64,000 nucleotides of DNA from Branchiostoma floridae (Eukaryota > Chordata > Leptocardii > Amphioxiformes > Branchiostomatidae), in assembly GCF_000003815.2 (NCBI RefSeq), contig NC_049982.1:17184365-17248364 (forward strand), read 5' to 3'. A program made the translations under genes and the position numbers. Positions 257 to 48,200 of the stretch are shown piece by piece. Under the pieces are notes generated by a model. It was not told the DNA's origin and made no database searches. It saw only the letters and a list, made by a program, of their open reading frames with translations. Numbering within the stretch: position 1 is the stretch's first letter; each line of letters opens with the position of its first letter.

Positions 257-925
257 TACCAACTATCTTATGCCTATCTGTACCAAATGTTACTCATACC
301 AGGGTACAGGGGTGCAAAATATACCGTTATAAGACCGTCAACAACAGTCGCACGGAGCTAACAGCGCAGCGAAAATACCATCGCTAGCGTTTCAACTTCG
401 GATAACAAGTTATAAGTACTGTTGAACTCAGTAACGTTAAAGCTTGTTTTTAGTTGCCTTTGACGGTTTGACCTGAAATAGTATTACGCTAAACTCCTGA
501 AGAGAAGTTATTACGACCTTCGGGCCGGTCGACATCATAGATATGCCCCTAAGAACATGATACCAACTATCTAAAGCCTATCTGTACCATAGTCTAAACA
601 TGCGAGAGCACTTGAGTGCGGGCTATACCGCTATCCCCCTGGCGGGAACAGTCGCTCGGATATAACAGGGCAGCGATGAGGCCATCGCTTAGTGATTCAA
701 CTTAGGATTAGCCTGTTATAAGTCCTGTTGAGCTCAGTAGCGTTAAAGCCTTTGATTTTAGTTGCCTTTCACGGTTTGACGCGAAATAGGTATTACGCTA
801 AACGGGGTGAAGAGAAGGTTATTATAAGTGACTGCTGCGAATTATAATAGATTTGCCCCTAAGAACTGATACCAATATAAAGCATTTTAAAATTGTTTAA
901 GTCTAAAATTTTGCTTGAATCTTGT
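257..925. repeat. Two diverged copies of a ~302 bp direct repeat
   Basis: The block starting with TACCAACTATCT at about 260 recurs at about 562. The shared core (GTTGAACTCAGTAACGTTAAAG versus GTTGAGCTCAGTAGCGTTAAAG and the following TTTGACGGTTTGAC-like stretch) lies at about 420-520 and 728-830. A third, partial start (TACCAAGTATCTAATGCC) at about 927 leads into the 163 bp array. No gene is visible in bases 1-970. Confidence 0.7.
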
Positions 926-969
926 TACCAAGTATCTAATGCCTATCTATACCAAATTTCAGGTCATTT

Positions 970-1985
970 AATTGTAATACCAGGGTACAGGAGCCAAAAG
1001 TGCCTTTTTTGGTCAAAAATTGGCCAAAAATCGCAAAAATAAGCATTTTGTTGCACTGTACACCAAAAGTGTTATTGAATTTATATGAAGGGATTATCAA
1101 GGCACATCTGTGTCAAATTTCAGCTCATTCGGTTGCAATACCAAGGTACAGGAGCCAAAAGTGTCCTTTTTTGGTCAAAAATTGGTCAAAAAATCGCAAA
1201 AATAAGCATTTTGTTGTACCGTACACCAAAAGCGTTATTGAATTTATATGGGGGCATTATCAAGGCACATCTCTGTCAAATTTCAGCTCATTTGGTTGTA
1301 ATACCAGGGTACAGGGGCCAAAAGTGTCCTTTTTTGGTCAAAAATTGGTCAAAAAATCGCAAAAATAAGCATTTTGTTGTACTGTACACCAAAAGTGTTA
1401 TTGAATTTATATGGGGGCATTATCAAGGCACATTTCTGTCAAATTTCAGCTCATTTGGTTGTAATACCAGGGAACAGGGGCCAAAAGTGTCCTTTTTTGG
1501 TCAAAAATTGGTCAAAAAATCGCAAAAATAAGCATTTTGTTGTACTGTACACCAAAAGTGTTATCGAATTTATATGGGGGCATTATCAAGGCACATCTCT
1601 GTCAAATTTCAGCTCATTTGGTTGTAATACCAGGGAACAGGGGCCAAAAGTGTCCTTTTTTGGTCAAAAATTGGTCAAAAAATCGCAAAAATAAGCATTT
1701 TGTTGTACCGTACACCAAAAGCGTTATTGAATTTATATGGGGGCATTATCAAGGCACATCTCTGTCAAATTTCAGCCCATTTGGTTGTAATACCAGGGTA
1801 CAGGGGCCAAAAGTGTCCTTTTTTGGTCAAAAATTGGTCAAAAAATCGCAAAAATAAGCATTTTGTTGTACTGTACACCAAAAGTGTTATCGAATTTATA
1901 TGGGGGCATTATCAAGGCACATCTCTGTCAAATTTCAGCTCATTTGGTTGTAATACCAGGGTACAGGGGCCAAAATATACAGTTT
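970..1985. repeat. 163 bp tandem (satellite-like) array, about 6 units
   Basis: The motif ACCAGGGTACAGG/ACCAGGGAACAGG recurs near 979, 1138, 1300, 1463, 1626, 1789 and 1952. Spacing is exactly 163 bp in the later units and slightly shorter in the first two. Unit identity is very high. The units happen to lack stop codons in some frames, which makes overlapping open frames of 97-148 codons. They shift by one base per unit (163 is not a multiple of 3), so they are repeat artefacts and not genes. Confidence 0.95.
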
Positions 1986-2296
1986 TGGTCTAAAATTGAC
2001 CAAAAAATCTCAATAAAATCATTTTAGAGGCAGATATGAAAAAACTGAGAAAAAAGCATCAAGGTATTGGCCCATTCTACCCCTGTGCCAAATTTCAGAT
2101 CATTCGGTCCAGGAACGGCGGAGATGAATCACTTTGAAGATTTGACAGGAGAAAGAAGAAGAAGAAGAAAGAAAGAAAGAAGAAACATTACGAATACAAT
2201 ATATTTCACCATACTATGTATGGCTGAAATATAAAAATGTATCAAGTATAACATACATCGTACACATGTGTCTAAGTTGGAAACAGACAGGATAAA

Positions 2297-2425
2297 GCGT
2301 GGGACCGCGTGGCGCAATCGTCAGCACGTTTGATCAGGTCCAGAAGGTCCTGAGTTCAAACCCCGACGTGTCACCGATCTTGTGCCCTTGGGAAAGGCAC
2401 TTTACACGACTTTCCTATATAGGCT
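2297..2425 (+). mobile_element. tRNA-derived SINE (5' part)
   Basis: The stretch carries RNA polymerase III promoter-like boxes: a degenerate A box at TGGCGCAATCGTC (about 2311) and a B box at GAGTTCAAACCCC (about 2352). A tRNA-unrelated body follows (CCTTGGGAAAGGCACTTTAC). It lies in the second intron of the reductase-like gene on the other strand. A relative with the same TGGCGCAA / GTCCTGAGTTC layout is at 54172. Confidence 0.7.
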
Positions 2426-2484
2426 ACAAAAGTCTTCAGCAAATTGAAGTTGGTAGCGTCAAAAACGGAAAAAAAAAAGCTAAC

Positions 2485-2909
2485 CTTGAAGTCCTTATCA
2501 GGGACCAGATCTTTCATCTTGTCCGGGTTCCTGACCAGTGCGGTGACATCATGGCCCAGCGCAAGGGCCTGCTTTACAACCTCAACACCTACAGGACAAT
2601 ATAGCAATCACTGTGACTGGCGATCTGAGAGGGAAATTCCTAATACATGTAGTTTTTTGTTCTTTTCACCTGTTTTTGAAAAAAAATCCACCTATTCTTG
2701 AGCACTGAAAAATCTTTTCTATCTTAATTCGTGTATACAACTGTATTTCAAATCCAATATATTGTTGGTAAATAAAACAGCAACATTGGAGTTTTAAAGC
2801 TAATAAAATCGTACACTGAACAATAACTCGGTGGACGCACAAGTTACATATTAAACATGATCTTTAACATACCTGTAGGACCAGTCGCCCCAAACACTGC
2901 CAATTTCAT
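2485..2909 (-). CDS. BLVRB: Biliverdin/flavin reductase B-like NAD(P)-binding protein, first two exons (3' partial)
   Basis: Join, read on the minus strand: exon 1 = 2909..2873 (37 nt), exon 2 = 2588..2485 (104 nt), giving the first 47 residues. Exon 1 ends ACAG|GT and exon 2 follows CCTGTAG|; phase 1 matches phase 1 across the intron. The product starts MKLAVFGATGPTG, a strand-loop-helix with the GxxGxxG dinucleotide-binding glycines. It continues VEVVKQALALGHDVTALVRNP, the second strand ending in the Arg typical of NADPH users. This matches the start of flavin reductase/biliverdin IXbeta reductase (BLVRB) and related atypical short-chain dehydrogenases, which reduce flavins or biliverdin with NADPH in the cytosol. 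Exon 2 ends AAG|GTTAGC in phase 0. No later exon is seen down to base 1, so the remaining ~155 residues should lie left of the window. A broken copy is the alternative. Confidence 0.75.
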
Positions 2910-3001
2910 CGTGCAGATGGTCAGAGTCGCCTTTTCAAAGCTCGTGTAGGGAATATTATCACTTCCTTTATTCAAAGGGCAAAAAAGGAAATTAAATGAA
3001 T

Positions 3002-3221
3002 GTACAATTACAAGGGCCTCGTATTATGCAAGAAGCACGGGGTACTAGCTAAATATTAACGGTCTCTTTATAGTTTTATTCGTCAGATGGACCAATGTAA
3101 CTGTCACTTTTTGTGCTGTTTCCTTCTTTTACAAAATGCAGAATAATGTCTGCAGATTTACAAGTCTGACGACCTATGTCCTGATCAGTACAATTACAAG
3201 GGCCTCGTATTATGCAAGAAG
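3002..3221. repeat. 34 bp perfect direct repeats around a 152 bp segment
   Basis: The 34 bases at 3002-3035 (GTACAATTACAAGGGCCTCG...) recur exactly at 3188-3221. The 152 bp between them (3036-3187) show no similarity to the DNA that follows the second copy. The second copy runs into the LINE reading frame. Confidence 0.85.
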
Positions 3222-4300
3222 TATGTCTCTATGCTGATGATACGGCAATTTTTTGCTCCAGTGATGACACTAGGTACATTGAAGCCACTCTGAATTCAGA
3301 ACTCTCTCATATAGCTACATGGTTCCAGTTAAACCATTTGACCCTAAATGCTTCAAAGACGAAGTGGATGCTCTTTGGGAGCAGTGGTAAGCTTAAGAAA
3401 GCACATCCAGTGTCAATCAAAATTGGACTAGAGTCAATAGAAAGAGTGGTTTCATTTAAATACCTAGGGCTTATTCTTGATGACAAATTGTTGTGGAATG
3501 AACATGTTGACAAACTCTGCTCAAAGGTAACCCAACGAGTAGGTTTACTCAGACGTCTTAGACCTTGTTTCACTGTAAATATAGCTGACATGTTGTATAA
3601 AGCAATGGTACTACCCCTTATGGATTACTGTGACACCGTGTGGGATAGCTGCGGAGTGGGGAGACAACAACAACTCCAAGTGCTACAGAACCGGGCTGCC
3701 AGGGTAGTTCTGCAACTCAACCTACAGGCCAGCAGTGTCCTCAACCTTCATGAGAAGCTCAGCTGGCAGTACCTTGCAGGGAGAAGGCGGGATCATGTGT
3801 GCATTATGGTTTACAAGTGTATCAATGGGCTAGCACCAACATACCTATCATCCATCTTCTCTCACAACCACAACTTACACAATTACCAAACCAGACAGAC
3901 ATCACTCCTATACAAACCCTTTTTCAAGACCACAACAGGACAGCGTACATTTTCATACAGAGGTGCTAAACACTTTAATTCACTTCCAGCCTACATTAAG
4001 CAAGTTCAAAGCCTAAATTCATTTAAGTCAGCTTTGAAAGACATAACATAGTCTCAGTACTGAGTAGTGACCTCTGACCTCCCAAACTGTTGACCTTGGA
4101 TCGGATTATGATTTTGATTTATCTGTGTCTTTCATGTTTCAGTTGTATTTATATGTTCCGACGTATATGTCTACTTTTCTCTCTGTAAGTTTTTATTTCC
4201 TTGTATGTATATGTGAAACTGGGCCCTATTGAAAACCAGTGTACCAGCACTGAATAGGCTACCCAGGTGTATGAAAATAAACAAACAAACAAACAAACCA
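3212..4300 (+). mobile_element. 5'-truncated LINE fragment (reverse transcriptase C-terminal part)
   Basis: An open frame at 3212-4051 (279 residues) starts at the LYADDT catalytic box of a non-LTR reverse transcriptase. It continues through the thumb/connection motifs (LTLNASKTKWMLFG, KYLGLILDDKLLW, CSKVTQRVGLLRRL, MDYCDTVWDS, LQNRAARVV) to the usual C-terminal region. The endonuclease and most of the finger/palm are missing. A ~220 bp 3' UTR follows, ending in an (AAAC)n tail at about 4277-4300. The family looks like the CR1/L2/Jockey group. It is not the same subfamily as the copy at 7080. No gene function is expected. Confidence 0.9.
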
Positions 4301-4431
4301 GAAGTAAAAGCCTAATGGTCTTTCTAACTTAGTCAGGCATTCATACCGCCTTGAACGGCAACGTGACACTTGTACAGGGTGACCTAAAAAAACCCTGGTG
4401 ATCACGATTGCCATGCATTCATGTACTAAAT

Positions 4432-4625
4432 ATTACTCTCCAAGCGGAGGTTCGGTCTTTTTTTACGTGTCTTCGGCGTTTTTTTCGGTCTTTCTATTTT
4501 GTAGTTTTCTTTATGTCCCGCGGCCAAGACGGCAAGAGACAAAATGAAAACGGTACAAAACAGAAAGCCCAATAAAGACACCTAAAACACGAAAAACCAG
4601 CTAGTCGGAGCCGAATTATGCTTGA
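4432..4625. repeat. Imperfect foldback (MITE-like) sequence
   Basis: The left half (GGTCTTTCTATTTTGTAG region, 4440-4520) is complementary, with mismatches, to the right half (CTACAAAACAGAAAGCCC-like region, 4540-4610). The centre is near GCGGCCAAGACGG. This gives a long imperfect hairpin as in non-autonomous DNA elements. Clear target duplications were not found. Confidence 0.5.
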
Positions 4626-6125
4626 AGATGTCCTAAATATCACATCATATCCATCGATCACTTTGGTTTAGTACATCTATTTCAATTAGCTCGTTTTTAC
4701 GGCTTAAATGTGGCACGTTTTTGTTTTCGTGAATGCATCCTTACATATAGGACCTCACGTGACTTGAAAAAAACGGTAAAACGAGTTGCAGAGATTAAAA
4801 ATGGTGAGAAAAATCTCACCTGTACATCTTCTGGGACATTAACAAACGATGAGAATCACTCTCACCTTGCAGTTGCACCTTGCAAATATCAGCAGATATC
4901 TGGCAAATACCAATGACCCGTGATGTTCCACACAGTTCCTACAATTCCACGTGTTTTGGGGGATCAGGAACTTGAGTCACTGCTTGAACTTTGTGCCCTG
5001 TGACATAAGTGGACTGTGACCTCAAACAAAAGGTTTCGGTGAGTCAAGCTGACAATGTAGTCAATTGACTCAATCCAAATCGGACTGTCATTACAACTAG
5101 GACACATGCAGGGAGGAACCACTAAATGAACCTTTCATTGCAATACACGTGACCGTTTGCGATGTTACCAAGGATAAGGCAGGAGTGTCGGTTTTCGAAA
5201 TGCCAACTAGCGGTCGAAAACCAAACGAACTCTTACTGCACGTTTAGCTACATTGCAAACCTTGCGAATTTACCTCCCATTCAGATTTAGATTTATCTCG
5301 TTTGTTTGGGTACAATAAAGCGTGAGGTTGACCAAGGAGCTTGATTTTTAACCTCCTTGGGTTGACATTTTACACCCAGAATATTGAAATGACACCAGGA
5401 TTTCACCCCTACCCTAGTGGACCAGTCTAGTCAGTGAGAAAGCATTCAGGTGTCAATTGTGCATATATTGGGCAAAGGATAGAAAATATAAATTTTCATC
5501 AGTCTATACATATGTATATATTCCTGGTCATACTTTCTGTCACACGAAAATCAAGACCATTGCATACCCAGTACATTCATGAAAACGGACCAAGACAGAA
5601 GACTCAACATCGTTTTGTTTAAAATCTACCCACTACCAATCATCACAGTATCACAGGTAGATAAAAAAATACGTTCATATACACATAAAAACAACTACTA
5701 CTTATACATATCTTTGGTCAGATTGTAAGAAATTCTTGTGCCGGAGAAAAGTGCACATTATAAAAGTCACTGCAACAAAGACGTAATACATTATATAGTA
5801 CAGTAAATCCTATAAAAGGTAGCACACCCACATTTTCTAAGTTTCCGCTGTAGTTCTACTACAGATGTGTACAGGTAACCATCCCTGTTGTCGTTTTTAA
5901 AATCCCAATGTGAACGAAATTGTCAGTAAAAAGGAGGCTACAGCCACATAGCAAGAGGTTAACATGAATTCAGTTTAGGTGTGGCCTTGAGCCAATGTCG
6001 AATCAAGTGACACACGGGGTGTTTTATCTTACTCGAATACGGAAATATTACAAAAATCTTGCTCCTCTTTATATAAAGGAAAACTGTATCTTAAGAGACA
6101 ACTCATTAGCATTCATTTGCTGATA
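4626..6125. other. Spacer with no recognised gene
   Basis: AT-rich intergenic DNA. Short open frames at 4710-4916 and 5434-5622 show no family motif and no splice-consistent context. It includes the region downstream (3' side) of the TMEM121-like stop codon at 6126. Confidence 0.5.
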
Positions 6126-9100
6126 TCACACCGAAGAGTGGGCTTCCACTGGTAGTTTGCTTGCTTCCGACTCAGTCTGTCCATCATGGAGCTCTATGGC
6201 TTCTTCTGGCACGCACTTCTCCTTGTGTGGCTCAATGTGATCAGGGTGGAATGTTCCGTCACACTCCGAGCACTTCTTGGGTCCGTGCGGGCCGACGTTT
6301 TCCCAAATGTCTTTAAACCCAATGATCAGCAGCATGACGTTCTTAATTAGGAATACAGACACGTCTTGGTTGTAGATATTCCACAGAAGCATCCTGATGA
6401 CAAGGAAGGGAACGTTCACTAACAACATGAAGAGGAGGGAATAGAGCACTCCGAAATTTACGGATGCCACTTCACCATCCGACCTGTTCTTCCTCAGTTC
6501 AAAGAGGGCGACTGTGGGGAGGAAGAAGACGATGCACGCGAAGGAAAGAATGGCGTTCTCCAGCTCAAAGGTTAAGATCACCCGCGATTCCTGCACAAAC
6601 AGGATATCCAGTAACTCTAGAGAGTCCAGGATGTCGAAGGTCACACCCAAGGCGAGCCTATCTACGTAGTTTTTCCTGTTGGTGTGCGGCTTGGCGTCGT
6701 GATGCCCGTACAGGAGCAGAAGGAACAAAGGGGCAGACAATGCTAGAGTCGTCTTGAGTGCGTTGGGGCCGAACCAGTCGTGGTCGGTGAGTTCGTCTGC
6801 TATCTCCCATTTGAAAATGATGGCGACCCTGGGGACGTACAGACAGGCGTACACAAACCACGAGATAAAGGCGAAGGGCAGCTCATCACCGATCCGGGCA
6901 AGGCCAGGCGACATCCACTTCTGTCTGAAGTACCGGTACGATGTTATGAGCGCGTACAGCCACAGACAGACGACCACGATGTCCGCAGTGATCCAACCTA
7001 ACCAGTTCAAGTTCAGGTAGAAGGCCAAACAATAGTCGAGCAGGGCGCCTTGGCACACAAGAACCAACACGCACAACACTTTTTCTTCCAAATTATCTCA
7101 ATGTGTTGACAAATATGTTCCCTCCAAAATGGTAGGCGCCAAACGCCACTTACCATATGTCACTCCTGACCTTAAACGGTTAATGAGGAAGAGGGACAGA
7201 TACTACAGAAAGACCCTAGGTCAAAAGTCACCTGAGAGAAAAGACAAGCTGAACGAGTATAAAAAAGAAATCAAGAAAAAGTTAAAGGAATGCTACTGGC
7301 AGTACATTGAATCTATTATAACTGACATACCCGTACCAGGAGATACTAGTGATAACACCAATAACTCCTCTGCAAAGCAAGGCACCAAGAAGTTCTGGAG
7401 CTTTCTTAAATCCATTAAGTCAGAAAGGTCTGGTGTTTCCCATCTTAGGAACAATGGTACCCTGGTGTCAGACAGTAAGTCTAAAGCTGACCTACTCAAT
7501 CAACAGTTTCAATCTGTATTCACCAATGAGCCCTCAGATGACCCCCTGCCAGACCTAGGACCTAGTCCTCATGTCTGTATGGAGGACATCCAAATAGAGG
7601 TGAGTGGTGTTGACAAACTGTTGGGGAATTTAAACATCCATAAAGCCTCTGGGCCAGATCAAGTTCATGCCCATGTCCTGAAGGAACTCAGCTCAGTCCT
7701 CAGTCCCATCCTTCAGATCATATTCCAGAGAAGCCTGGACACCGGCATTGTGCCCGAGGCTTGGAAAGAGGCTAACATAGCCCCTGTGTACAAGAAAGGT
7801 GATCGTTCCAAACCAGAAAACTACCGTCCAATCTCGCTCACATCCATTTGCTGCAAAGTAATGGAACACATTATTGCCAGCACGACGATGACACACTTTC
7901 AGGATAACAACATTTTGTATGACCTCCAGCACGGTTTCAGCCACGGCAAGTCATGTGAGACCCAATTGCTCTCACTAACAGATGACTTGGCTGTCAATAG
8001 GAATAGTGGAATCCAGACAGACCTCGTTTTTATGGACTTCGCGAAAGCGTTTGATAAAGTCCCACACCGTAGACTGCTACACAAACTACAGTACTACGGT
8101 GTCCGAGGGAACACCCTTGTCTGGATACAGAATTTCCTGTTGGGCCGGTCCCAAACGGTTGTGCTTGATGGAGAGCGTTCGGACCCTATGCCAGTGACCT
8201 CGGGCGTTCCCCAGGGTACAGTGTTGGGGCCCATCCTCTTCCTAGCATACATAAACGATCTCCCAGAACACGCTGCAAATGCAAAGGTGAGACTCTTCGC
8301 CGATGATTGCATTTTGCAGATGCCTATCCATGACAGCTCTGATTGCGACAAGCTACAGGAAGACATAGATAACATCTGTCTCTGGGAACAAAGGTGGCTG
8401 ATGGAGTTCAATCCATCTAAGTGTGAGGTTATGACCATACCATCGTCCAAAACACCTATCACCCACACATACACCCTTCACAGCCATCCACTAAACAAGG
8501 TAAGTACCACCAAATACCTTGGAGTCACCATCTCCTCCAACCTCACATGGGGCAGCCACGTCGACGCCATAACATCAAAGGCCAACAAAACTCTGGGCAT
8601 GCTCAGACGCTGCCTGCGGGTTGCCAGCACGACGGCAAAGGAGAGGGCCTACATGGCCCTGGTAAGACCACACCTGGAATATGCCTGTAGTGTGTGGGAC
8701 CCGCACACCCAAGATCAGGTGAGGCGGGTCGAGATGGTTCAGCGTCGAGCAGCCCGGTATGTCACCAACAATTACCAGTATACAAGCTCTGTCACTACAC
8801 TTATAAACCAACTGGGCTGGCAGTCCCTACAAACTAGAAGGAAAAATGCCAGGCTTACAACTATGTACAAGATCATTCATAACAACATTTCCGTCCCACA
8901 CGCGTCCAAACTGGTCCTGGCGACTCGATGCTCCCGCCGCACCAACCACGCTTTCAAGCTGCAGGCCATCGCGAGCAAATCCAACTTTTATAGGCTCTCG
9001 TTCTTCCCTCGTACCATCCAGGAGTGGAATGAACTTGAGCCTGGTGTGGCGGAGGCGGGGTCTCTCTCCCAGTTCAAAACTGAACTGGGGAGGGCCCTGC

Positions 9101-9390
9101 TGCATTGAGTCGCCCCTACACGTCCTTGTACATATGTAAATAACACTAACCCACCACATTCACTTGTCTTGTCATTTGCACCCACAGTTTCATTTGTTTA
9201 TGTTCCTTTGTGTTACCTCTATTTTCCCGATGTTTGTATGTTACTTTCACCTGTAACTAACTAAGCATGCGCACTGCTATTAATCCCCGTCAAGGGGGCT
9301 GAGCAGTAGAAAAGAAGAAAAGAAGAAGAAGAACACACGGGCCGGAATGTTGCCGAAACGGGCACAAATGAGATTTGCAACCTCCCCCAT
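6126..9390 (-). CDS. TMEM121: TMEM121-family multipass membrane protein with C-terminal C2HC finger, interrupted by a LINE
   Basis: The main block is 7079..6126 on the minus strand. The first 18 codons are at 9390..9337, with start context AACAATGGGG. The 2.25 kb between is a LINE plus a 5 bp duplicated target (AACAC). Removing them leaves one frame of 335 codons that crosses the junction in phase. The open frame alone would begin at a TTG (7091) inside LINE sequence, so that start is not real. About seven hydrophobic segments are visible. The block DRLALGVTFDILDSLELLDI, the FFLPTVALFELR segment and a VFLIKNVMLL segment match TMEM121/TMEM121B (hole/CECR6) proteins, which are poorly understood membrane proteins. 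At about residues 288-307 lies C-x2-C-x11-H-x3-C with the F/D/I spacing of ZC2HC-type fingers, followed by an acidic tail. As sequenced, the coding region is broken near its start. Either this is a disrupted allele or expression uses a downstream start. Confidence 0.8.
7080..9331 (+). mobile_element. 5'-truncated LINE (CR1/Jockey-like) inserted in the TMEM121-like gene
   Basis: The element runs from 7080 to a GAA-rich tail ending at 9331. AACAC is duplicated on both sides (7075-7079 and 9332-9336). Truncation falls just after where the endonuclease domain would end: the frame is open from 7081, starting in the linker before the reverse transcriptase. The ~220 bp 3' UTR (9109-9330) ends in an AAAAGAAGAAAAGAAGAAG-type microsatellite tail. 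The intact reverse transcriptase frame and nearly clean target duplication suggest a recent insertion. The element is antisense to the host gene. Confidence 0.9.
7081..9108 (+). CDS. Non-LTR retrotransposon ORF2, reverse transcriptase part
   Basis: From the first ATG (7129) the frame gives 659 residues; it is open back to 7081 at the truncation point. The order of motifs is a basic linker (KRHLPYVTPDLKRLMRKRDR), then WKEANIAPVYKKGD and NYRPISLTSICCKVME (finger boxes), QHGFSHGKSCETQL, FMDFAKAFDKVPH (first catalytic Asp), SGVPQGTVLGPILFLAYIND, then LFADDC (catalytic Asp pair), KYLGVTIS, and the C-terminal HLEYACSVWDP and VQRRAARYV boxes. All three catalytic aspartates are present. It copies element RNA into DNA at a nicked target. 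The element's own endonuclease is absent from this copy, so it could not move by itself. A CR1/Jockey/L2-type clade is most likely. Confidence 0.92.
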   Translation, partial: FSSKLSQCVDKYVPSKMVGAKRHLPYVTPDLKRLMRKRDRYYRKTLGQKSPERKDKLNEYKKEIKKKLKECYWQYIESIITDIPVPGDTSDNTNNSSAKQGTKKFWSFLKSIKSERSGVSHLRNNGTLVSDSKSKADLLNQQFQSVFTNEPSDDPLPDLGPSPHVCMEDIQIEVSGVDKLLGNLNIHKASGPDQVHAHVLKELSSVLSPILQIIFQRSLDTGIVPEAWKEANIAPVYKKGDRSKPENYRPISLTSICCKVMEHIIASTTMTHFQDNNILYDLQHGFSHGKSCETQLLSLTDDLAVNRNSGIQTDLVFMDFAKAFDKVPHRRLLHKLQYYGVRGNTLVWIQNFLLGRSQTVVLDGERSDPMPVTSGVPQGTVLGPILFLAYINDLPEHAANAKVRLFADDCILQMPIHDSSDCDKLQEDIDNICLWEQRWLMEFNPSKCEVMTIPSSKTPITHTYTLHSHPLNKVSTTKYLGVTISSNLTWGSHVDAITSKANKTLGMLRRCLRVASTTAKERAYMALVRPHLEYACSVWDPHTQDQVRRVEMVQRRAARYVTNNYQYTSSVTTLINQLGWQSLQTRRKNARLTTMYKIIHNNISVPHASKLVLATRCSRRTNHAFKLQAIASKSNFYRLSFFPRTIQEWNELEPGVAEAGSLSQFKTELGRALLH

Positions 9391-11509
9391 TGTTAAAAAC
9401 ACAATCAGGTTAGAGATAAAAGTCCTTAATCCACCCAAGAAGTTGATGAAAGCTCCTTGATCCACCAAAGCATCAAAATATTACCAACCCAAAACGACAC
9501 TGTTCTTTGTTTCTCTCCACAGGATCAACCCGGAAGTGGTTGAGCGCCTGACCCTTTTTCCCGCCAGTGGTCCCGCACCAAAGTTTCGTCTCGCACTAAA
9601 GTTTTTTTTTTTGCGAAGTTTCGACGGGAAAGATCGGGAAACGATTCAATGCGAAGCAATGCCACCACTCCGAAAAGGGGAAATTACGATGATTGTGTCT
9701 GTAGATGCTGACTGCTAATACCGATATTTCTGTTCCTGTAAAAAAACTTTGGAAATCCAATATTTCAATTCCAGTAACAAACTAGGCCTCCAACCTCTGT
9801 GACCCTCTGTGATATGTCACCCATGTCACCAGGAAGCTCATCTCACCATTGGTAGTGATCGAAGTTTCATAGAATTCGAACCTCCTTGGTAGCTAAACTT
9901 TCTTCTAAAACAAGCTTAAGGTTACACACAAATCAGATTTTCAACGACCACTGTCGACTTCTTCAGGATCAACAGGAGTTTCACGACTCAGGCCGTACCT
10001 TTACCCGATCCGATTTCAATCTTAACAAAGAACAACAGATGTATTGATTGTATGTATCATTAATAATTCAAATAAAGTCCTCATGTGCATGTATTATGTT
10101 CGTTGATCATTTTCTTAACCCAAATAACAGACGTAAATAATCTATGTAAAGAAAGTAGACTTTAATCAAATTTTCTGATAATTAATGCAAGTGAGGTCCA
10201 CATCTGCATAATTAATGTTCAGTGTTAACCTGCACGTAACTATAAAATATCACAAGGATGAAATTCCGGTGAATTATTTACATAGTTACTTACAAAATAT
10301 TGCTACATCAGTAAAACAGATAAATTTGGAGTATCGATACTATAAATTCCATCCACTTTTTCTAAACACAGAGACTATCGGCTGAAACCGCACTAGTATA
10401 AGGACTTCTATAAGGTTTCCCAAGGCTGGGAAACTTACATTTCTTATTGTTTTGGTTTTCTGACTATGTAACGTCAGTAATTCCCTGTAACTTTTTTTCT
10501 GAGTATGCTTAATTAGGCTAAAGACACCATAGTCACGAGAGCCTGAAACCGTAGGCATTCTCTTGACTAGGGAAACAATATTTCTTATCGATTAGTCTTT
10601 GCTAACATACACTTCTGTACACATCTATAATTCCCTATCCCCATCAGTTCTTAACAAATGGCTTACTCAATAATCATTTAGAAAATGTCATAATGCCATG
10701 GTGGTAAATGATGGAAACATTATTGCGACACTTGGTAGCTACTTTGATTTAGTTGAACATTTTCAGACATAAAGCATGCATGTTGTCTCTTAGAATATAA
10801 TAATCATTTCACACAGTTCAGTAAAAGGTGACACTAGTTTATTTAGTGATTTATTCAATATAAACAGCATATCTCAGTACATATATGTCAGTATCGCAAT
10901 ACGTGCAAGGAGTTTATGACTATAACCTCCTTGATATGTGAGTATTTATGACCTAGCTGTATGTGTAATATTGCCTACTTGTGATAGTGAACAAAAAGTA
11001 CAAAAAGACACTTTACTGTGCAATATTCTAAGTTGAAAATCTTAAAACAAAACTTTTTCATTGCATTGATTCCATAAACGATTGCCCATTTGTTAAACAT
11101 GTTAAAAATCATAAGCATGCACTTCTGTGACTCTTCTCTAGGTGGCGTCCTACGAAAAACTACAATGTAGTCTTGGGTGTGTAATAGGTTCAAACGAAGT
11201 TATCATAACGGGTTGTCTATTGGTGACCTGGAATCATTAACATTCTTTTCTCCTGACAACACTTTTTCTCGTGACAACAATACGCAAAACCTAGAAATTG
11301 CGGTGAGAGTACGTCGGATTTTGCCCTTCGTACCTACTAATATCAATAAACTACCTATTATAATCGGCGATTCATTCTGTAATTTAGAATACGTCCAATT
11401 CTTTCATGCTACTTCTATAGTCTGCTGTCAATTACAAATGTACAAGCAATATTCATATATCTCAACCCTGACATTCATCTGTTCATATATTTTCCATATT
11501 ATGATAATT
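9391..11509. other. Intergenic spacer, no gene recognised
   Basis: This lies between the upstream end of the TMEM121-like gene and the 3' end of the CIMIP2-like gene; both genes are read leftward. A CCGGAAGTG (ETS-type) site is at about 9529, some 140 bp upstream of the TMEM121-like start codon. Two TTTATT stretches near 10839 and 10851 read AATAAA on the minus strand and could serve as poly(A) signals for the CIMIP2-like gene. Nothing else stands out. Confidence 0.45.
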
Positions 11510-36258: not shown

Positions 36259-39200
36259 TCACTTTTTCTTTGATCTGTTACCTGAGAGAGGACATAAGAC
36301 TTGCTTTTAGAATTACGAATTACAATAACGAAAGTTCAGCTAGTAATTAGTGTACTGGTGCAAAATTAGATAAGCCCTAACTGTGTGACATATGACTAAA
36401 GAATTTTGTATACTGTGGTTCTCTTTTACATTGAAGCTATAAATATGGCTTCAATTCTAGGTCAAAAAATTAAACAGGGCCTCAAACTGGTGGGAAAAAC
36501 ATTTTGTATAACTTTTTTCTCTTTGCTATGGCCAATTAAAAGTCCTCAAAGAAGACTTAGAGTGAGAGACTAACCTTTGGGAGAAACCTTTCCCTTGGTG
36601 ACAAGAAGTCTGGGGGGCTCTCCTGTTCCTGCAGACTTCTTTCTCCGTGGTGTAGCTTCAGGTTTCCCTTTCCTCATCACCTTAGTCTTCACTCCAGTTG
36701 ATCTGCTTGCAGAGCATGGGGTAGGCTTCTTTGAGGACTTGATGTTCCCAAAGGTACTTTTCTTACCACTGGCAGGGATAGGTACACAATAGTGCTTAGA
36801 CTTGGAACTCTTCACTGCGGTCCGACCACTTGCTGAGTTCACAGCAGTGCCTGCAGCTTTTCTTAAGCTACCATCTGTAGGTGAGGCAGAACCCTTTACA
36901 GTCTTGTTTGATTTCTTTCTTTTAGTGCTTTCCACCATTAATGTGCTGTTCTCAGGCAAAAGGACCTTTGATAAGTCTTCTTCAGATCTGTTCCTCCTCT
37001 GCCTAGTAGCCATGGCCTTTCCTGAGGTTAGATTGGAAGGTCCTGCTGCTGCCTCTTCCATCACACTGGGATCAATTATGTTTTCTCTTGTTTCTCCTGT
37101 TGCTATAGTTACAGAGACACTGGTTGGTGACCTGCTTCGCAAGCGTCTCCCTGTTGTATCTTTTTCCATCACAGGTGTTTTGTTTGGCTTTGTGTGAGGG
37201 GCACATTTCACAGGAATGTTATCCTCAACTGGATTCATGTTCTCTTCCTTCTTGATTGGCATCTCCAGCTCCACTGACTCAGTAGAAGGAGGGTCTATTG
37301 TCTCTGTACCTTTTTCCTCCGGCAGAGCTGATTTTTCTTGGTACCTCTTCTTATCTTCTCTGCTGTATGTCCACCCAGTATTTTGAGGATTGAATAACAC
37401 AAGGCTATCTTGATCAGATTCTTCCTTACTACGTCCTTTAGAAATGTGTGATTTGTGTTTACTGAAGACTGCAACTGTCTTACCCAGTATCTTACATGTT
37501 GGTACCCTTTTTCGGACACTCCTTCTTGTAGCCTCAGCAGCTTTTTCACTCTTCTGTATTACCAAGCAATTAGATCTGTTTTTCTTCTGAGACTTTCTGC
37601 CTTCCAATGTGATTACTTCACTGGGAGTTGGATCTGTTCCTGGGGATGAAGCCAAAACTGCTGTTTCTGCCTCCTGACTGCCGGTGAGGTTGCTGACCTC
37701 ATTACAACAGGCCGACCCTGCCAGTGGCTCTGATGATGTGGGTTCCTGAGAATCCTTGCTGCCATGTTCATGACCAACAGCTGAAATTGTCTCCAGAGAC
37801 GACCCTTTAGAATCTGATACTGTCCTCCCACCGGTAGATTTACGCTTTTGTTGTCTTTTAACAGTCTGTTTTGTCACTTGAGACTTGACCTGGGTTGTTG
37901 AAGATGGCTTTTGTACAAACTGATCACTCCCTGGCACCTCTGCACCACTATCTTCCTCAGCAGAAGACAGTAAGTATTGTGTCATTCTTTGAGTTGCAAC
38001 TCTCCTCCTTACAGTCCTCCCTCGAACAAGGGGAACCTTCTCTTTGTTGTGGCTTCCTTCCAAGGATTTATCTTGTAGTTCCAAAGCAGCATCCTCAGAC
38101 ATCTGATTTGCAAATAACTCTGCAGAGCCAGGATTGAGTTTTTGCTGACTTTTAACTGCTTGTTTTTTTCTTCCTTTTTTGCTAGATGGTGACTTCTGCA
38201 AAGATCCTTGGCTTTTTGATGATTCTGACGTTGCAGCTTCATCTGTGCAATGCGACAATGGTTTTGTCCTGCTTTTCAGACTGCTCGACTTCCTCAGACC
38301 ATTTCCTAATGAGGAGGAAATCTCTCTTTTACTATCCTCACCTTTTCTGTCCACAGATACCTTGCAAGTAGTGGAATCCTCCTCAGAAGCATATCTTCCA
38401 GACTCATTGTCAGTATGAGCTGCTGTTGTCTCTTGTTGGTAAGACCTCTGAGCTCTGCCCCTCCTACCCCTGAACCTGCCCATCTTTTGACTTCTTTTTG
38501 CATTTTCTTTTGGCACTGGAATGTTCTGTGAAAATACTTCTAGACTTTGCAAATCCCCCTTGCTTTCACAAGGCTCTGATGATACACTGGTTTTTGTAGG
38601 GGATGAGTCTTCAAGCCTCTGTAATGATGCAGCTTCCTCAGAAGCTTCGGTTACCAGCTCATCAACAGCATTCAGTTCCTCCTTTGAAGAAGGCATCTCT
38701 GCTTTTTGTATTTCACAAACAGAGCTACGCTTTAGTGAGTCTTTGCATGTTTTTTCTTTCTTCTGGGGAGTAACACATGGATCATGCAAAACATCACCTT
38801 CCATTAACTCAGCACCTTTGCTATCTTTTGATGCCTTGACACTTGTACATGGATCAAGGCCTGCAGGCTGCACTGACTCCTCTCTTTGCTGTGATGTCAG
38901 ACCCTCCTCAGAAGCCTCATTTTTGATTTTGAGAGCATCACTACTAAAAGATGCTGTCTCTGTTGTTATGTTTGACACCGTTGGACTTGCTCTTTTCTTC
39001 CTACCAGCAGACAGACTCTTTTGCAGTGATATCTTAAACTTTTTTCTCTGGTCTGATGAGTTATCGTTGGCCTGTGCTGTGTCAGTTGACATTCTCTTTC
39101 TTGTCACAGGACCCCTGTATCCAGTATTATCAGCCTGTTCACGGTCAGCATAATGAAAGCTTGGCTTGTCATCTTTAGTTTTAGGAATTTGTTCTGGAAT

Positions 39201-42200
39201 TGTTAGCTTCCTATCTGCAAGAGTTTTACTCTGAGGCAAGGAGGCAGAGCACCTATTGCCCTCAAGAGAAGTACTTTGTTTACCCTTAAAGACATCAACT
39301 GTCCGATTGTTAGCAATAACTGCATCTTTGCCATCTATTGAGGAATTGCCAACTGGTTCGTCAATGGTGTCCACTGTACGTGTTGCACTATTGCAGGCAT
39401 GTTCAGGTTCAATGTTACAAGTCTTTACAGGTTCAACACTGCAAGTCTGTTTAGGTTCTACTTTGCATGTCTGCAATGCCTCATCCTTGGACGTGGGCTC
39501 TGGTTCAGACTTGCAAGTCTGACCTGTTTCAACCTCGGCATAAACAATCGGCGGATCTTTATCATTTGTCAGAGAACCATGGACTACTACTGTACCAGTT
39601 GCTGTTTTTCTCTCTTCTGCTGGAACACTGCCTCCACTGCTAATGTGGCCTTGAGTTAGTTGTACCTCACTCAATGGGATGACATCATCATCTGAAGGTT
39701 TATCATTAGTTAAAGGACTTTGAGCAGGTTCCACCTCACTTGCTGTCCTATTAGTATCAACACTTTCCTCTGTGGTCAAACAGCTGTGAGCTGTTATTGT
39801 ACTGTCAGCTACTGGAATATCATCATCAAAAAAGTTGTCTTTGTTGACAAAAAGGCTGTCCTCTGGTTCTTTGCTAGTTGCAACTAAAGCTGAAGATTCT
39901 GACTCAGAATGCAAGTGGATGTGAGATGGTTCAATGTCTGGGGCCTTTCCTGTATCAAGCTCACCAACATTCTCTTCATCAGTGTCATCTTTGGGACCAT
40001 CATCAACATGTCCTGCTGCAGTCTCTGATGTACCTGAGTCCCAAGCCACCATTTCATTACCTGTTATGTTACGATCAATACCTCTGGCCTCATTTGGAGA
40101 TGCTGCTAGTTGTGCAAGTGTCAACCTGTTGCTTTCTTGTCTATCAACTGAGTCTGCCTTCCAAACCTCTACAGCATCTCCACTGGTCATTCTGGTATTC
40201 TCATTCTGCTCAGCACTGCTGGCTGCAGACTTTCCTCTTGCCTTTTTAGTGGTTGCTGCCATACTTGTTGGTTGGTCACTTTCATAAGAGCTACTGCCTT
40301 TTGCTACAGTTGAAATGCTACAACCATTCACAGCTATGTCATTGGAGGCTGTGCAGTGTTCATAGGCTGGAATGTATGGGACAGTCAAGGGCCTTCTGGC
40401 AAGAACTTGGCCTTCACCCTCGCTGTCCTGTATCTGTACATTTTCTGTTGGAGGAGGGCATCCTTGTGATTGTGCATGAAGTGATGATGAAATCTGATCC
40501 ATTCTCATGGGAGAGGACACTTTTCCATTATTATCCACAGGCTCTCTTTGGGATTGTCTAAGAGATGAACAAGCTGAACTGTTGTCAGCCACAGCATAAT
40601 GACTAGCCCACATATGGTTAGCTGAAAAGCTACTTCTGAAGGTTGGAGTTGTTCTGAGGTCTAGTGGTTGTACCTCATTTGTGGTCACAGTGTGAGTCTT
40701 TGGCCAGGCTGCTGGTGAGGTTTGGGCAGGTTTGCTTCTAGCATGAGCAGGATTTTGGCCATGTTGTGGAGAATGCCACCAATCAGCCTGGCTTTGCCAC
40801 AATGTTTCATCAGGTTCTCCATATGGTGTTACATCTGTCAGCCCACTCATGTACCGGGAATGTTGGTCATTTATCCACCTTCGACTGCCTGGTTTACTTT
40901 GAGATGGAGAGGGTCTGAATGTTGGGATACTGCTGTCAGGCACATGCCTTCTAGGGCTGTACTTTGCCTGCGGTGGAATGTTGAGGACAGTTGGCGAAGC
41001 ACCAGCATTCACCGCAGAAGTGCTCTGCTTCCTGGAGTTACTGCTCTTCCCTTTCCTACTGCGCTTCTTCTTGTCTGCAGGTACAAAGAGCCCTTCATCT
41101 CTGCGAAACCCCTGAGCAGTGTCCACCAGCGGTAAACTACCAACATTGTAGCACCCAACAGTTGACTGCAGTCCTGTCTGGAATGGACTAAAGGTAGCAA
41201 AGTTGTGACTGTTGGGAATGTTAGCAGCAAAAGCAGTCTGAGGCAGCATATATGCAGGGGACATGTTAAGTATTGCAGGGGACATGTTACCCGATGCAGG
41301 GGACACATTCAAAGGTGCAGAGGACATGCTCATTGGTGCAGGGGACAAGCCCTGTATCATAGGGATCTCCACTTCCTGTGGGAATAAAGGAGTAACCACA
41401 GACAGTGATTCATTACATCTACTCTGCATTGAAGGGTCAGCTCCAGGACTCCTTGCCACATCCTTCATTTCATCCTTGTCTGTGAGGAGATTATACAAGA
41501 ATGATGCTTTGTAGTCTTTCTTGCCCTTTCTCTTTGATGCAGACTTTACAGTTGGGGATGCAAAATTCTGGTTTTCATCTTTGTTCCTTGACGGACTCAC
41601 ATGTGATGACTTCTTTGGTGGACTAGTATTTTCCGTGGGGGATAATGTTGTTGGTGGACTTGCCATCAACATCACAGGCGGACTCACCATGGGTGACATC
41701 CTCACTGGAGGACTGAAACTATGGTGACTGAAAATGGGCATCTCATTGGTACTGGCATTGGTATCAAACTTTGGATGAGATGCCTCCGGCACCGTTGTTG
41801 GCACTGCAAGCATAGTGTCTTTTACTGGTTGCAGAAGCAATGTCAAGTGTTCTTCATTTGATGGACTGACAAAGTTGTCAAAAGAGGTTTGGGGCAGCTG
41901 TTTTGTGGGTCTTAGGGTAAGTATCCTATCAGTAGATGTTACACCATCATTTCTGGAGGGCATTGGCATCATCAAGGAAGGGTTATCAGCCTGCCAATAT
42001 CTCTCTTCTGTCTTCCTTTCTGGGTCCTCCTTCCCTTGGATCCCACTATCTTTTAATGAATCTATGTCTTGTAGGTGTGGAATTCCCTTTGCTGCCAGCT
42101 CTGCACATGTTTTCTTTCTTATCTCTGCCAAGTTCTGTGGGCACTTTCCTTTTCTCTTCTTTGTGCCTATTTTGGATTTGCTTCCATTCACCTTTGCATC

Positions 42201-45200
42201 ATTTATACCAGACATTGGCACAAAGTCTTCCCTACTACTAGCAAAAGACTGGTGGTCATAGCTGATCTGTTCTTTACCATCAAAAATGTCTTTTGTAGCA
42301 AGTGTGGCAGCCGCTGCATGCCCAAAGGGTAAGTCTGTTGTCCAAGGGTCCAGTGAACTGTTCGGAAAGTTGTGCTGATGAGAGCTTGTCATATGGGTTA
42401 TCACCTCCATTCTGGTGCTGCTTGAATACTCACAATACTGGCACACAAATGAAATGTCTTTTGAGTAGCGCTTGATATGGTCACCATGTCTGTTCATGTG
42501 CCTTTTGATGTTGCCCACATAAATTGTCTGAAACGTACAGCAGCCACACTTGTAGCTCTCACGCTTTTGAATAGCTGTTGGCCCTACTCCTATCATACCT
42601 TTCCTTCTTTTCTTTGTTGCCAGGAAAGGCCGTGGGATATGCAAGAGCTCTCCCCTCATCACGTTTTCCTGTGTGCCTTTGGCTTTCTCTACAAAAGTAC
42701 TATCTGTTGCTGATGCACTATCCCTCCTGTCTAAATCTGCTAGACCCGAGGAATACAATTCACCATGCCTCATCATGTATTCCAAATCAGTATTACAGGC
42801 ATCATCGGTATTAACTCCAATTGTCCTCTCACTCAGATATGGTGAATTTCCTCTCTTCTGTGTCCCTAACACTTTGTCTGTATGTTCCTTGGACAGCCTC
42901 ACGGTGCCACGTTGGTCACTGTATGTCCCCTGACCAGTCATGGTGCCACTTTGGTCATTATATGGCCGGGCCTGACTAGCTTTACCCTCTGACAACATTT
43001 GTCTCAGCTTGTTAAATTGTAATGGCTTTGCAGTTGGGGCACTCTTTTTATCCCTGCTGTCCAGAGACCTGTTCTTCAGTTCAGCTGGCTCTAGCATAGA
43101 TTTCTCCTTTGTCTTTGAGACAATTTCATCCATTCCATCCACACCATGAGTAACATTGTTCTGTCTAAAGTCAAAACCTGTCCAGAAATTCCTGTCACTC
43201 TGCATCTTCTCCGGCCTGCTTGGCCCTTGGATTGGGTGAAGCCCAGATTCCATTCCCTCTCCAGTCTCAGTGCTGTACTCACTGCTACCATCATACCCTT
43301 CATGGCTGCTGGTTGTGTCTCCCCTGCTGCTCAGGCTACTGGCACTGCTATTCCACGTGTTCTTCCATGTTGGATCAAGACTATGCACTGGTGCAACAGT
43401 GTGCATGGAGTCTGAATCATGCAGTCTCGACCTGTTGGGAACACCTGCATCTCTTTGAAGACCTTGCTGTGATGACAGCTTTGAAGGTCTTCTCTTTGCT
43501 TTGGAACCATCTTTTTCACCTTTGGATGAAGGAGAGATAAAGGGTCCCCTGTCTTGTCTCTCAGTTGCATTGGTAACTGTGCTAATAGCTTCAAAAATAT
43601 TTTTCCTAGAAGTGACCATATTTTGGTTGCTTCCACCGGTGGCACCTCCTGCCTCTGCACTCGTATCTGCTGATTTCTGATGACCCAGATGTGCTGCCAT
43701 CCTCATTTCAGCAGCAGCTATAGTGTTGTCGGGGGCACTACAGTTCTCGAGATCTACCAACAAAACAGAGCCACATGGCCCTCCTTGGTCCATGCTGTCC
43801 ACAAAGTCAGCCATCTTGATTTTCAACAAGTCTGCATTGCCATTTTCAGCCATCAAGTCTCCTGTCAAAGTAAAGTCTGACAAGTCTCCTTGGTGGTTTC
43901 CCTTTTCTGGAGAGTGACAAGACACAATCTCTTCACTTTGATCACTGGAATGAGTGTAGATTTTTAGTGGCTCTGGAGGAACAAATCCTCCCCACTCCCC
44001 GAGAGTCCCCCCATACTTTGAATGCAGTTCCTCCATTCTGTCCAATCCTACAACATCACAGGGAACACTCTCTACAGCATCAAGGTCTAGTGTCTCTGTG
44101 CATTCCAGGTCCATAGACTGCTCTTCTTTGTCTACTGGTTGCTGACAGTCACCACAGCTTGCATCTGCTGGGGAGACAGATACTTCATTGACAGCTTCCT
44201 CTTCAGTAGAAGTAGTGAAATCAAAATCCTCTGGATTTGTTTTCCACAGCAAGTCATGAAGGGTCACATGCCTGAGGTTCTTATGTGGCTTTCTCACACC
44301 CTGTCCTGCAGGATGCTCTTTGCTGTGCTCTCCCTGTGTACTGGAGCGTTTCTGGTGCTTGTCTTCATCATGACCATTGCTCAGTACACTGGAGTTCCTA
44401 TTGGATGCAACTTCCTCTACCTTGTCTTTGATTATCCTTGCCAACAAGTCATCTGTGTCCACCATTTTATCCATGCTCACAGTCTCTGTACTGTCAGGTG
44501 TGCTCCTGACAGCATCATTGGCAACCGGTTCCAACCAGCCTTCCTGTGAAACACTTCTTGACTCTTCCATGCTCTCCGCCTGTTTCCACTTGTCTCCATA
44601 TGCTGGACTTCTGCCTTCATTCTCACAGACAATCACCTCCTCTTCTCCCACAAAGGGACTGTCGTTGGCAACATTGTCCACAATACTAGTTGCTTTGGGT
44701 GGCCTTGGAGGGGTGGCAAAATCCAGTCCATACCTGGCCCCGCTGAAGATGGGACTGACTGGACCACATGACCCGTCATCACTATCACTCAGAAGGAGTG
44801 TCAGGTCTTCTTCATCTGACTCCACCGCGGCACAAACTGGCTCCTTCTCCGTCAGCCTGGGCTTAGAGACTGTCGCCTTACATGGAGATTTCCCGATTTC
44901 CTCAAATGCTGATATGTCACATTCAGCCTCAACATGTTCCTGGGTAAGAAAATAAAGGGGCAGTTCAAACTCAAATAAAGTCACCACAATGTCATGTATT
45001 TTGCCCTGAACAATTTGTCATAATTGTTTGCTGTATTTTCTTTTGGTGGAGACAAAGTCCACTCGAACACAAAAATACCAACATAGAAAGGTATTCCTTC
45101 CTTGTGACATGCACATTTCATGAAAAGAATCATTCAGCATACCTGTAAGAGAGTGTTCCTCTCCTCTGAGGTCAGCAGCTTTAACATGTGTGGCTTCAGC

Positions 45201-48200
45201 TGCTGCCAGGACATCTCTGGATGTAGACCGCAGGAGCGGGGTCGCAGCTTCCGCAGGGTCTTCAGGATGTCTCTCCTCTTGTGTCTGCTGAGGTTCACCC
45301 CTGAGGCAAACATGCAATCACAAAATCAAATTAAATGTACAGTTGGACTCAAGAGCTGTAAGGTCTTCTTGACTGTATTTGACAGGGCTGCAGTCCTTAA
45401 TGATATGTTCCCCTTACCTTATATTACTGTCAAGGTACTACTTTTTACTATAATTGCATACCTAGTTGTCTAGCTTCCACCTGTATCTGCGATCACCATT
45501 CCCAATACGTTCTTTACTGTTTTCTGTTTTCTTTCCTCTGCCTGTTAATACTGTAATTACAAATACCTGAAGCCAACGATAGACAGACTTAAGAAATAAG
45601 AGTAATATACAAAGTTTTCCTGTACTCTAATTAGAGGTTAGAATTTTCTCCAAACATTATCCCAAGCAGGTGACTAGGAGGTTGAAGAGGGTTTGTTGTC
45701 TGACCTGTACCCTGCACTTCCTCAGGTAGGTTGACAACAGCTTCCACCACGTAGTACTGATCCAGGTCAGGACTGATAGAGAAGGAGGTCAGCTGGCTGG
45801 CACACCTGGGCAGGGGGGAGAAACACAACCAGTACACGGACAGGTTAAAATCAACCATATACTGACTGTTGAATGTAGTACCATTAATGCAGAAACTTTT
45901 GCGGTGGTTTTATGTTTGCATTTTTTGCAGTGGACGCTTCACCGCGAACTCAAAAACATTTTCCTCCTGTCTTCTGCCTGCGCCACCTACGACACTCCCT
46001 TCTCACTACATGTACGTAGTATAGTGTTACATTGTCAAAGTATGATGACATGTTTGAGGTACTTGCTACGGTGAAGACACACAAATACTTAGTTCGCATT
46101 CATTCATTTCTACATACCACCTACTGTATAACACCATGGTAGAAAAGTACCACTGTACTACGTATTCAGAGGGTAGATACGGTTAAATCAGTGAAAGTTG
46201 ATCACACCAGCAATATCAAAGTCAAAAGTGGACTTTTCTGTCCATTTGTAGCACCCATGCCGAGTAAACAGTTAGTGTTTTCTTTGGTGTAGCAAGCAAT
46301 ATATCGCAATATTTACATCTCCTTGAAGAAAATAAGTTTTGGTGACAATATACATGTACAATGTAGTACGTATCTAATTTGAGTATTCCCACGACACCCC
46401 CAAATCTGGTGATACACACGAGACTTACTATTTTTTTAACCTCCTTGATGTAACATACCTGATCTATTACTTTCCACATATAGGATTTGCTACTAAAGTA
46501 GAGTTTAGGTCTCAACATAAAAAGACAGTAAGTGTCATCTGTAACCTTAGAACTGGAAACTGTTTTGGTTTGCATACTTTATACCATCTGACAGCATGTG
46601 TAGACTGAGTTATTGTGTCCCATCCATATAGGTCAATACCTGATTATTTTCTATCGTTTTGTGCTTTTATCAAACGGTATGTCATAGTTGATCCAGGAAC
46701 TTATTTTCGGACCTTCCTGGATTTCTAAGCATGCCATTTTCGTGGGTATATTGTTACAACTTTGTCAAAAATGCACACAAAATCAGTCAATACATCTTAG
46801 TGGAAACCCAGCATCAGTGTTGAAAGTACACTACACATTGCTAAGTCCATACCTGAGAGTCTTCTTCCTTGGAATACAGAGCTCAAAAGAGACCGTGTGA
46901 AGTGTTCATTTAGAGTTATTTCAGCAGTTTATTCAGGTGTTACCCATTTGGTTACGGGGGTGTTTAAGCATAATATGAGGCATTGTTTTAATTTAAGGGT
47001 ACACATTATAGGAATTGAGCGCGCTGTAAATATCTTGTATTAAAAATCTCCATTCAGATTGAAATTTGCAATATGTTATGTTACTTTTTTTCCACATTTC
47101 CACCATCAGTATACAACACAAAATATAGCAAGCCACTAGAAGTCCCCTAATTTTTGGTAGCCTACCAAAAACTTCCCATTTTGACAAACATGGCTGATAA
47201 ATCAAGTGGTTGCAATTGTGGGACTTGTTTATATTGAATTCCCACGACAAAACACAGTTTGCAACTCATGCTATAGTTGATTCCATGTGATAGTTGATTC
47301 CATTCAGATGCTGCTCTATATGTGAAGGATTTTTTTAAGACTGTTTGTCTTTGGTTTCTCAGTTCTAAAGTTTTTCCGTGTTGCATGTCTCGTATGGTAG
47401 CTGTGCTGGTTAGATACCAAATGTAGTCTACAGTACAATGATGACGGCTCCTTGGAAAGGAGTACTTTGTGAAAGGTACACATGTTGCTTACATAGAGTC
47501 TTTCACTTACAGTCAACCATGATAAGACATTGTGCATATGCTTGATCGGGGTGCAGTTAGTTCTCAAACTAAGTAAGTCTGCCTGCTTTATTCTGCATCA
47601 CTTGTAGTGCGGTGATGTTCTTTTGTGTGGTAGAGGTCCAAACCGCTGCACAGTAGTCAAGATGTTGCAAGGTAGGTGTTTCTGTCAACAATTTCAGTAA
47701 GGACTGATCCAAGTATGCAGCACTCCTTCTGATGGTACCCAGGGACCTAGCCATTTTCTTTATGGTTTCTTCTACATGGAGGTCCCATGTGAGACACTCG
47801 TTCAAGATGCTCCCAAGTAGCTTCATAGTTGTTACTTGCTGTACAGGACATCCGTCAGCAAACAAGGTGAGTTTCGTTTTCTTTGACATTTTGGGTCTAC
47901 TCCCAAGCAACATACATTTTGTCTTATTTGCATTCAACAAGAGTATGTTTAGACTCACCCAGTTACATATATTATTCAAATCTTCCTGCAAATTGACTGT
48001 TACTGTCTCCACTGATGGCGAGCACGTGTATGCGGATGTAGTGCTGTACTACATATTTAGAGAGTAGATACAGTTAGATCAGTGAAAGTTGATCACACCA
48101 GCACTGTCAAAGTCATAAGTGGACTGTTCTGTCCATTTGTACATGTACAAGTAGCACCCTTGCCGAGTAACCACCAAATCATTACCGACTGGCAGTTGGT

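Follow-up and report, generated by a model that had tools for sequence, protein, structure and literature searches.

A young and probably polymorphic LINE insertion at the predicted start of a TMEM121-family gene in Branchiostoma floridae

Background

Insertions of transposable elements (TEs) are a major source of structural variation in lancelets. For Branchiostoma belcheri, the excerpts of PMC4284660 used here report 4.39% single-nucleotide polymorphisms (SNPs) and, in one diploid genome, 36,859 large insertions and deletions (indels) of 300-10,000 base pairs (bp), about 65-77% of which are ascribed to TEs. Excerpts of PMC12373286 likewise describe polymorphic TE insertions in lancelets, and mention 41 resequenced B. 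floridae samples that are available as well as parents with offspring. In a different animal, Anolis carolinensis, polymorphisms of long interspersed nuclear elements (LINEs) are reported to segregate at low frequency (PMC5389967). In this report, we analyze a LINE copy that separates the first 18 predicted codons of a gene of the CECR6/TMEM121 family (Pfam PF14997) from its remainder. It lies in a 64,000-nucleotide stretch of the Branchiostoma floridae assembly GCF_000003815.2 (contig NC_049982.1, positions 17,184,365 to 17,248,364, forward strand; hereafter, the window). We consider it quite probable that a young LINE entered codon 18/19 of this gene, and that the result is a polymorphic allele that has lost function or lacks its N-terminus.

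The element resembles 5'-truncated non-long-terminal-repeat (non-LTR) retrotransposons of the apurinic/apyrimidinic endonuclease (APE) type in its reverse transcriptase frame, repeat-type 3' tail and variable 5' truncation, and also in its short target duplications and many copies; we saw nothing unusual in it. The gene resembles the CECR6/TMEM121 family in matching nearly the full profile and in encoding a hydrophobic protein of many segments, and differs in that the LINE divides it in this haplotype. As in the lancelet examples within the excerpts, the insertion is kilobase-scale and probably segregates. However, in this case the predicted coding start of a gene for which our assembly search yielded no further family match is hit, and we infer segregation from the sequence only. 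Low-frequency segregation, as in Anolis, is what would be expected here.

Results and discussion

An in-phase empty site in a TMEM121-family gene

The features of the locus are as follows, in window coordinates.

6126..7079, minus strand: TMEM121-family gene from codon 19 through codon 335 and the stop (its 3' part, 317 codons), located by its PF14997 match
7075..7079, no strand: left AACAC repeat of the target site duplication (TSD), located by flank match
7080..9331, plus strand: 5'-truncated LINE copy of 2252 bp, sense opposite to the gene, delimited by genome matches
7081..9108, plus strand: LINE reverse transcriptase open frame, 675 codons plus stop, lacking an endonuclease, located by its match to RVT_1
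9260..9331, plus strand: LINE 3' end, a weak stem-loop and an AAG-type tail common to close copies, located by the 3' edges of the family
9332..9336, no strand: AACAC, right TSD copy, the AA of which may be LINE tail, located by flank match
9337..9390, minus strand: predicted 5' end of the TMEM121-family coding sequence, ATG and codons 1-18, based on the in-phase join and the A(-3)/G(+4) context

The frame at 6126-7079 matches PF14997 (CECR6_TMEM121) over profile positions 1-193 of 194, with an expectation value (E) of 8.9e-57. The score of 192.5 bits, against a curated cut-off of 25, places the gene in the family. All 317 codons left downstream of the LINE are open. When the LINE and one AACAC are removed, a minus-strand frame extends from the ATG at 9390 through 335 codons to a stop, with zero inner stops. 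At the junction, CGT (9339-9337) runs in phase into GTG-TTG-TGC (7079-7071). The ATG lies in the context ACA-ATG-GG. The initial annotation of the window had proposed the flanking AACAC pair, the in-phase junction and the good context of this ATG, and also a reverse transcriptase frame of over 650 codons in the LINE; all four were recovered at the positions listed above.

The protein predicted from the joined frame has eight hydrophobic segments over the cut-off that we chose. The first covers residues 19-37 (mean hydropathy 2.21) and the second covers residues 45-63, and thus the break after codon 18 adjoins the first predicted membrane helix, which starts at residue 19. We infer that 9337-9390 is the native coding start of the gene.

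The individual signals at the site vary in their weight. The flank match covers exactly 5 bases in the backward direction and none in the forward direction. A 5-bp match in this exact register occurs at 0.0011 of random window places, and at 0.024 when 2 bases of slack are permitted on each side, so the duplication alone is modest evidence. Moreover, the final AC of the left AACAC matches LINE sequence at that place in sister copies such as L002, so that the 5' edge can be placed only to within about 2 bases. The predicted empty site should be identical for a duplication of 3 or 5 bases. Shifting the joint by a multiple of three leaves the ATG in frame, and any other shift breaks it. An in-frame ATG before a stop is found for 0.285 of random non-coding 5' sides, and therefore an in-phase ATG alone is weak evidence; the fraction with an in-frame ATG in good context is 0.0455.

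We searched the assembly (513,431,437 bases in 431 contigs) for other copies of the gene. DNA from 5600-7079 is present at one place, and PF14997 has one match, with 4 of 4 candidates scored; neither search found a second or uninterrupted version of the 5600-7079 part in this assembly. A search of solved structures yielded one match to the gene, which is not meaningful (E 0.5), and a search of a viral collection confirmed no relatives. A fold predicted from the single sequence of the protein part after the insertion, with no alignment, had a mean predicted local distance difference test score (pLDDT) of 44 and was not used. Our literature search found no paper naming both TMEM121 and amphioxus, and left unsettled whether TMEM121 is named alongside Branchiostoma or lancelet.

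The LINE and its family

The LINE open reading frame is 690 codons from stop to stop, of which about 15 are host flank that is read by chance and 675 are open within the element. It matches Pfam RVT_1 with an E of 1.5e-33. The protein also has 13 matches among solved structures in the PDB, including LINE-1 ORF2p chains (E about 1e-19) and R2 chains; the top match is an RNA-directed DNA polymerase, and retron-type and group II intron reverse transcriptases are also listed. Searches of a viral collection and of prokaryote genome contigs confirmed no relatives of the LINE protein.

At least 51 stretches of the genome match the LINE, counting the window copy. This number is a lower bound, because 40 of 290 first-look candidates were scored. 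The best other copy, on another contig and with unrelated flanks, is 99% identical. Copies are dispersed, sharing a common 3' end and having variable 5' ends, and L004-L008 align with one another upstream of the base at which the window copy begins. A longer sister copy, L028, has a single 940-codon frame that combines an endonuclease domain (PF14529, E 2.7e-10) with the RVT_1 reverse transcriptase. A Pfam search found no endonuclease domain in the window copy, which is thus a 5'-truncated copy lacking an endonuclease, judging by its sequence, and therefore should not move by itself. The element may belong to a CR1/L2/Jockey-like clade. Terms for the short flank repeats of CR1 elements, which we looked for in PMC2612034, do not occur there.

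The window copy and its close relatives end in the AAG-type tail, which is missing from the part seen of L020 and L021, two diverged copies. Predicted RNA folding of the 3' end is weak (z scores of -1.73 and -1.16).

We assessed duplications across the family by comparing the longest flank matches with those of shuffled pairings. From 28 loci (L001-L028), 17 were used; L027 and L028 are repeats of L007 and L004, which leaves 26 distinct copies. The mean longest flank match of the 17 is 4.41 bases, versus 3.37 for the shuffled pairings, and 0 of 200 shuffles reach the observed mean. Five copies in which both edges are present (L006, L007, L012, L020 and L021) were added later, giving 22 copies with an unchanged result (4.45 versus 3.37, 0 of 1000 shuffles), and the signal persists among the 21 copies that remain when the window copy is removed (4.43 versus 3.38, 0 of 1000). 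L004, L005, L008 and L026 were left out, as no 5' edge was found for them within the stretch compared. Clear examples of duplications are AACATG in L003 and AACAATG in L018. Matches are poor or tail-like in L014 (2 bases) and in L002, L013, L020, L021 and L025 (3 bases each).

Two observations on related sequences are recorded separately. Short LINE fragments L022, L023 and L024 are at different places with different flanks and begin at the same element base (201). We considered these fragments as a candidate short non-autonomous element and rejected it, because a second search revealed starts at many positions; a weak hint remains. Also, reverse transcriptase fragments at 3185-4051 (plus strand) and 47569-48048 (minus strand) share about 28% identity with the LINE protein, and the first of them matches RVT_1.

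Age of the insertion

The initial annotation had called the insertion young on account of its open frame. Youth is borne out, but by comparison with a sister copy rather than by the frame. Open frames alone were tried as a clock, giving a 5% limit of K 0.028 (both frames, without indels), and were replaced by this comparison. The sister copy L002 (contig C17) is 99.3% identical to the window copy over 2254 bases, with 15 mismatches. Given its unrelated flanks and its own truncation point, which differs from that of the window copy, L002 is a separate insertion from the same source lineage. Fourteen substitution differences are present in 2247 columns, and we polarized them by using eight loci (L001-L008), of which the six further copies served as outgroup. 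Three differences are private to the window copy, seven are private to L002 (three of them in the tail) and four are ambiguous. The branch to the window copy thus carries 3 to 7 changes, part of which may predate the insertion.

In a neutral Wright-Fisher simulation with 3-7 changes and 4.39% diversity, the age of the insertion is 0.06-0.14 haploid-N generations and its expected frequency is 0.06-0.13, with zero fixed cases. At the Poisson upper limit of 13.1 changes and a diversity of 3%, which is an assumed lower value, the age is 0.39, the frequency is 0.32 and again none are fixed. Set against published lancelet diversity, 3-7 changes make the insertion far too young for neutral fixation. 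Under the neutral model, this age strongly favors an insertion that still segregates in the population. The model assumes that B. belcheri diversity applies here, that no sweep occurred and that LINE copies did not undergo gene conversion; a selective sweep or such conversion could give a falsely young appearance.

Consequences for the interrupted allele

Read from the native ATG, the interrupted allele encodes a 36-residue peptide. The first in-frame ATG remaining is residue 74, past the first two predicted membrane helices; between the insertion and the Pfam domain, no other in-frame ATG is available. If the transcript is unspliced, 49 other ATGs lie between the native ATG and this one. The allele would therefore give no full-length protein, and a start at residue 74 would yield at best a protein without the first two predicted membrane helices. 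Loss of function or N-terminal truncation of this allele is thus likely, as predicted from its reading frames. The initial annotation had listed polymorphism, fresh loss of function and rescue by a different start side by side. These outcomes are not equal: polymorphism is favored by the age under the neutral model, loss of function or truncation is likely, and rescue by another start is a weak proposal in view of the helices that residue 74 drops.

As a mechanism, we propose that germ-line retrotransposition in an ancestor of the sequenced animal would have inserted a new copy of a LINE encoding both endonuclease and reverse transcriptase at codon 18/19. Early arrest of reverse transcription may have left a 2252-bp 5'-truncated copy antisense to the gene, and the 5-bp AACAC duplication would have been made at its flanks.

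Alternative explanations

The LINE allele might be rescued, either through splicing that treats the element as an improvised intron or through use of another start, so that a nearly complete protein is made. We regard this as unlikely. The donor GT at 9338 paired with the acceptors AG 7079, 7085 or 7097 would give in-phase proteins of 334, 336 and 340 residues, and 11 of 102 tested donor/acceptor pairs retain an open frame longer than 280 residues. However, by a home-made scoring matrix, the required sites are weak: the donor is at the 78th percentile of window GTs, and the acceptors are at the 7th, 44th and 42nd percentiles of window AGs, with no pyrimidine tract. Strong antisense donors and acceptors occur deeper inside the LINE, where AG 9299 and AG 7232 are each at the 99.7th percentile, but none of these acceptors can bring an ATG back into frame, because a stop at 7100-7098, just upstream of 7097, closes the gene frame. 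The particular case in which the LINE acts as a newborn intron, from GT 9338 to an AG at 7079-7097 with the element removed entirely or almost entirely, strikes us as very improbable. If true, it would be much more interesting, as the birth of an intron from an antisense LINE would have been caught while polymorphic. Alternatively, the LINE might lie in a native intron or 5' untranslated region (UTR), with the true first coding exon elsewhere and nothing broken. This explanation seems slightly less probable than rescue in general. In its favor, AG 7049 is at the 90th percentile, and codon usage lends no support to coding at 9337-9390 or in the codons of the first transmembrane segment (TM1). 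An acceptor at 7049 would, however, put about half of the hydrophobic segment at residues 19-37 into the intron. Vertebrate TMEM121 has one coding exon with a short tail ahead of TM1, and the low fraction of random sites with an in-phase ATG in good context also argues against this explanation.

Great age or fixation of the insertion, with decay or replacement of the gene, would agree with the finding that the reference haplotype yielded the interrupted copy alone. The 99.3% sister identity, the 3 to 7 candidate changes, the lack of any fixed case in the simulations and the 317 codons that remain open make this quite improbable. An assembly artefact, in which the LINE was wrongly joined into the gene, has nothing specific in its favor and seems the least probable of these explanations, since both junctions resemble other insertions of the family in their AAG tail, short duplication and variable truncation point. 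We retain the reading that a young LINE interrupts codon 18/19 of the gene.

Several points weigh against that reading. Our evidence comes from a single assembly with one reference haplotype, and from sequence alone. The PF14997 match begins only past the first two hydrophobic segments of the joined protein, and therefore its N-terminus is checked by no database model. In a codon-usage test, the score of the 18 codons is equalled or exceeded by 0.59 of open non-coding windows, and 0.026 of coding windows score as low; for the TM1 codons, the respective fractions are 0.82 and 0.0075. The stretches tested are short, hydrophobic residues bias the scores, and the TM1 stretch fails as well. Finally, the diversity figure used for dating is from another lancelet species, B. 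belcheri.

Other features of the window

On the minus strand, the antisense LINE 3' end contains a strong acceptor-like site at 9299 and a donor-like site roughly 50 bases further along, at 9250 (99.7th and 98.0th percentiles). Given these sites, antisense insertions of this LINE family could supply new exons.

Three additional features were observed in the window.

945-2025: tandem array with a 163-bp unit, 6.6 copies and about 94% matches; the repetition gives open stretches of 130-150 codons
18819-19346, minus strand: frame that is probably a single exon and has a short PF10629 match (ciliary microtubule inner protein 2B-like; E 1.6e-5)
36570-45017, minus strand: single 2815-codon open frame, a very large single exon, in which the C2H2 zinc-finger matches, around residues 822-887, are all sub-threshold

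Conclusions

If our interpretation is correct, the reference assembly holds only a disrupted copy of an apparently single TMEM121-family gene. Vertebrates have a pair of such genes, TMEM121 and CECR6/TMEM121B, and comparisons of the lancelet gene with them would be misled. Gene models built on the reference assembly might lack the N-terminus or omit the gene altogether; models of this genome are said to be error-prone in the excerpts of PMC4967905 used here. The insertion event itself is ordinary for a genome in which TE insertions make up most large indels, as the excerpts of PMC4284660 indicate. Its location would, if the gene is indeed interrupted, provide a natural allele ready for probing the role of the little-studied TMEM121 family in lancelet.

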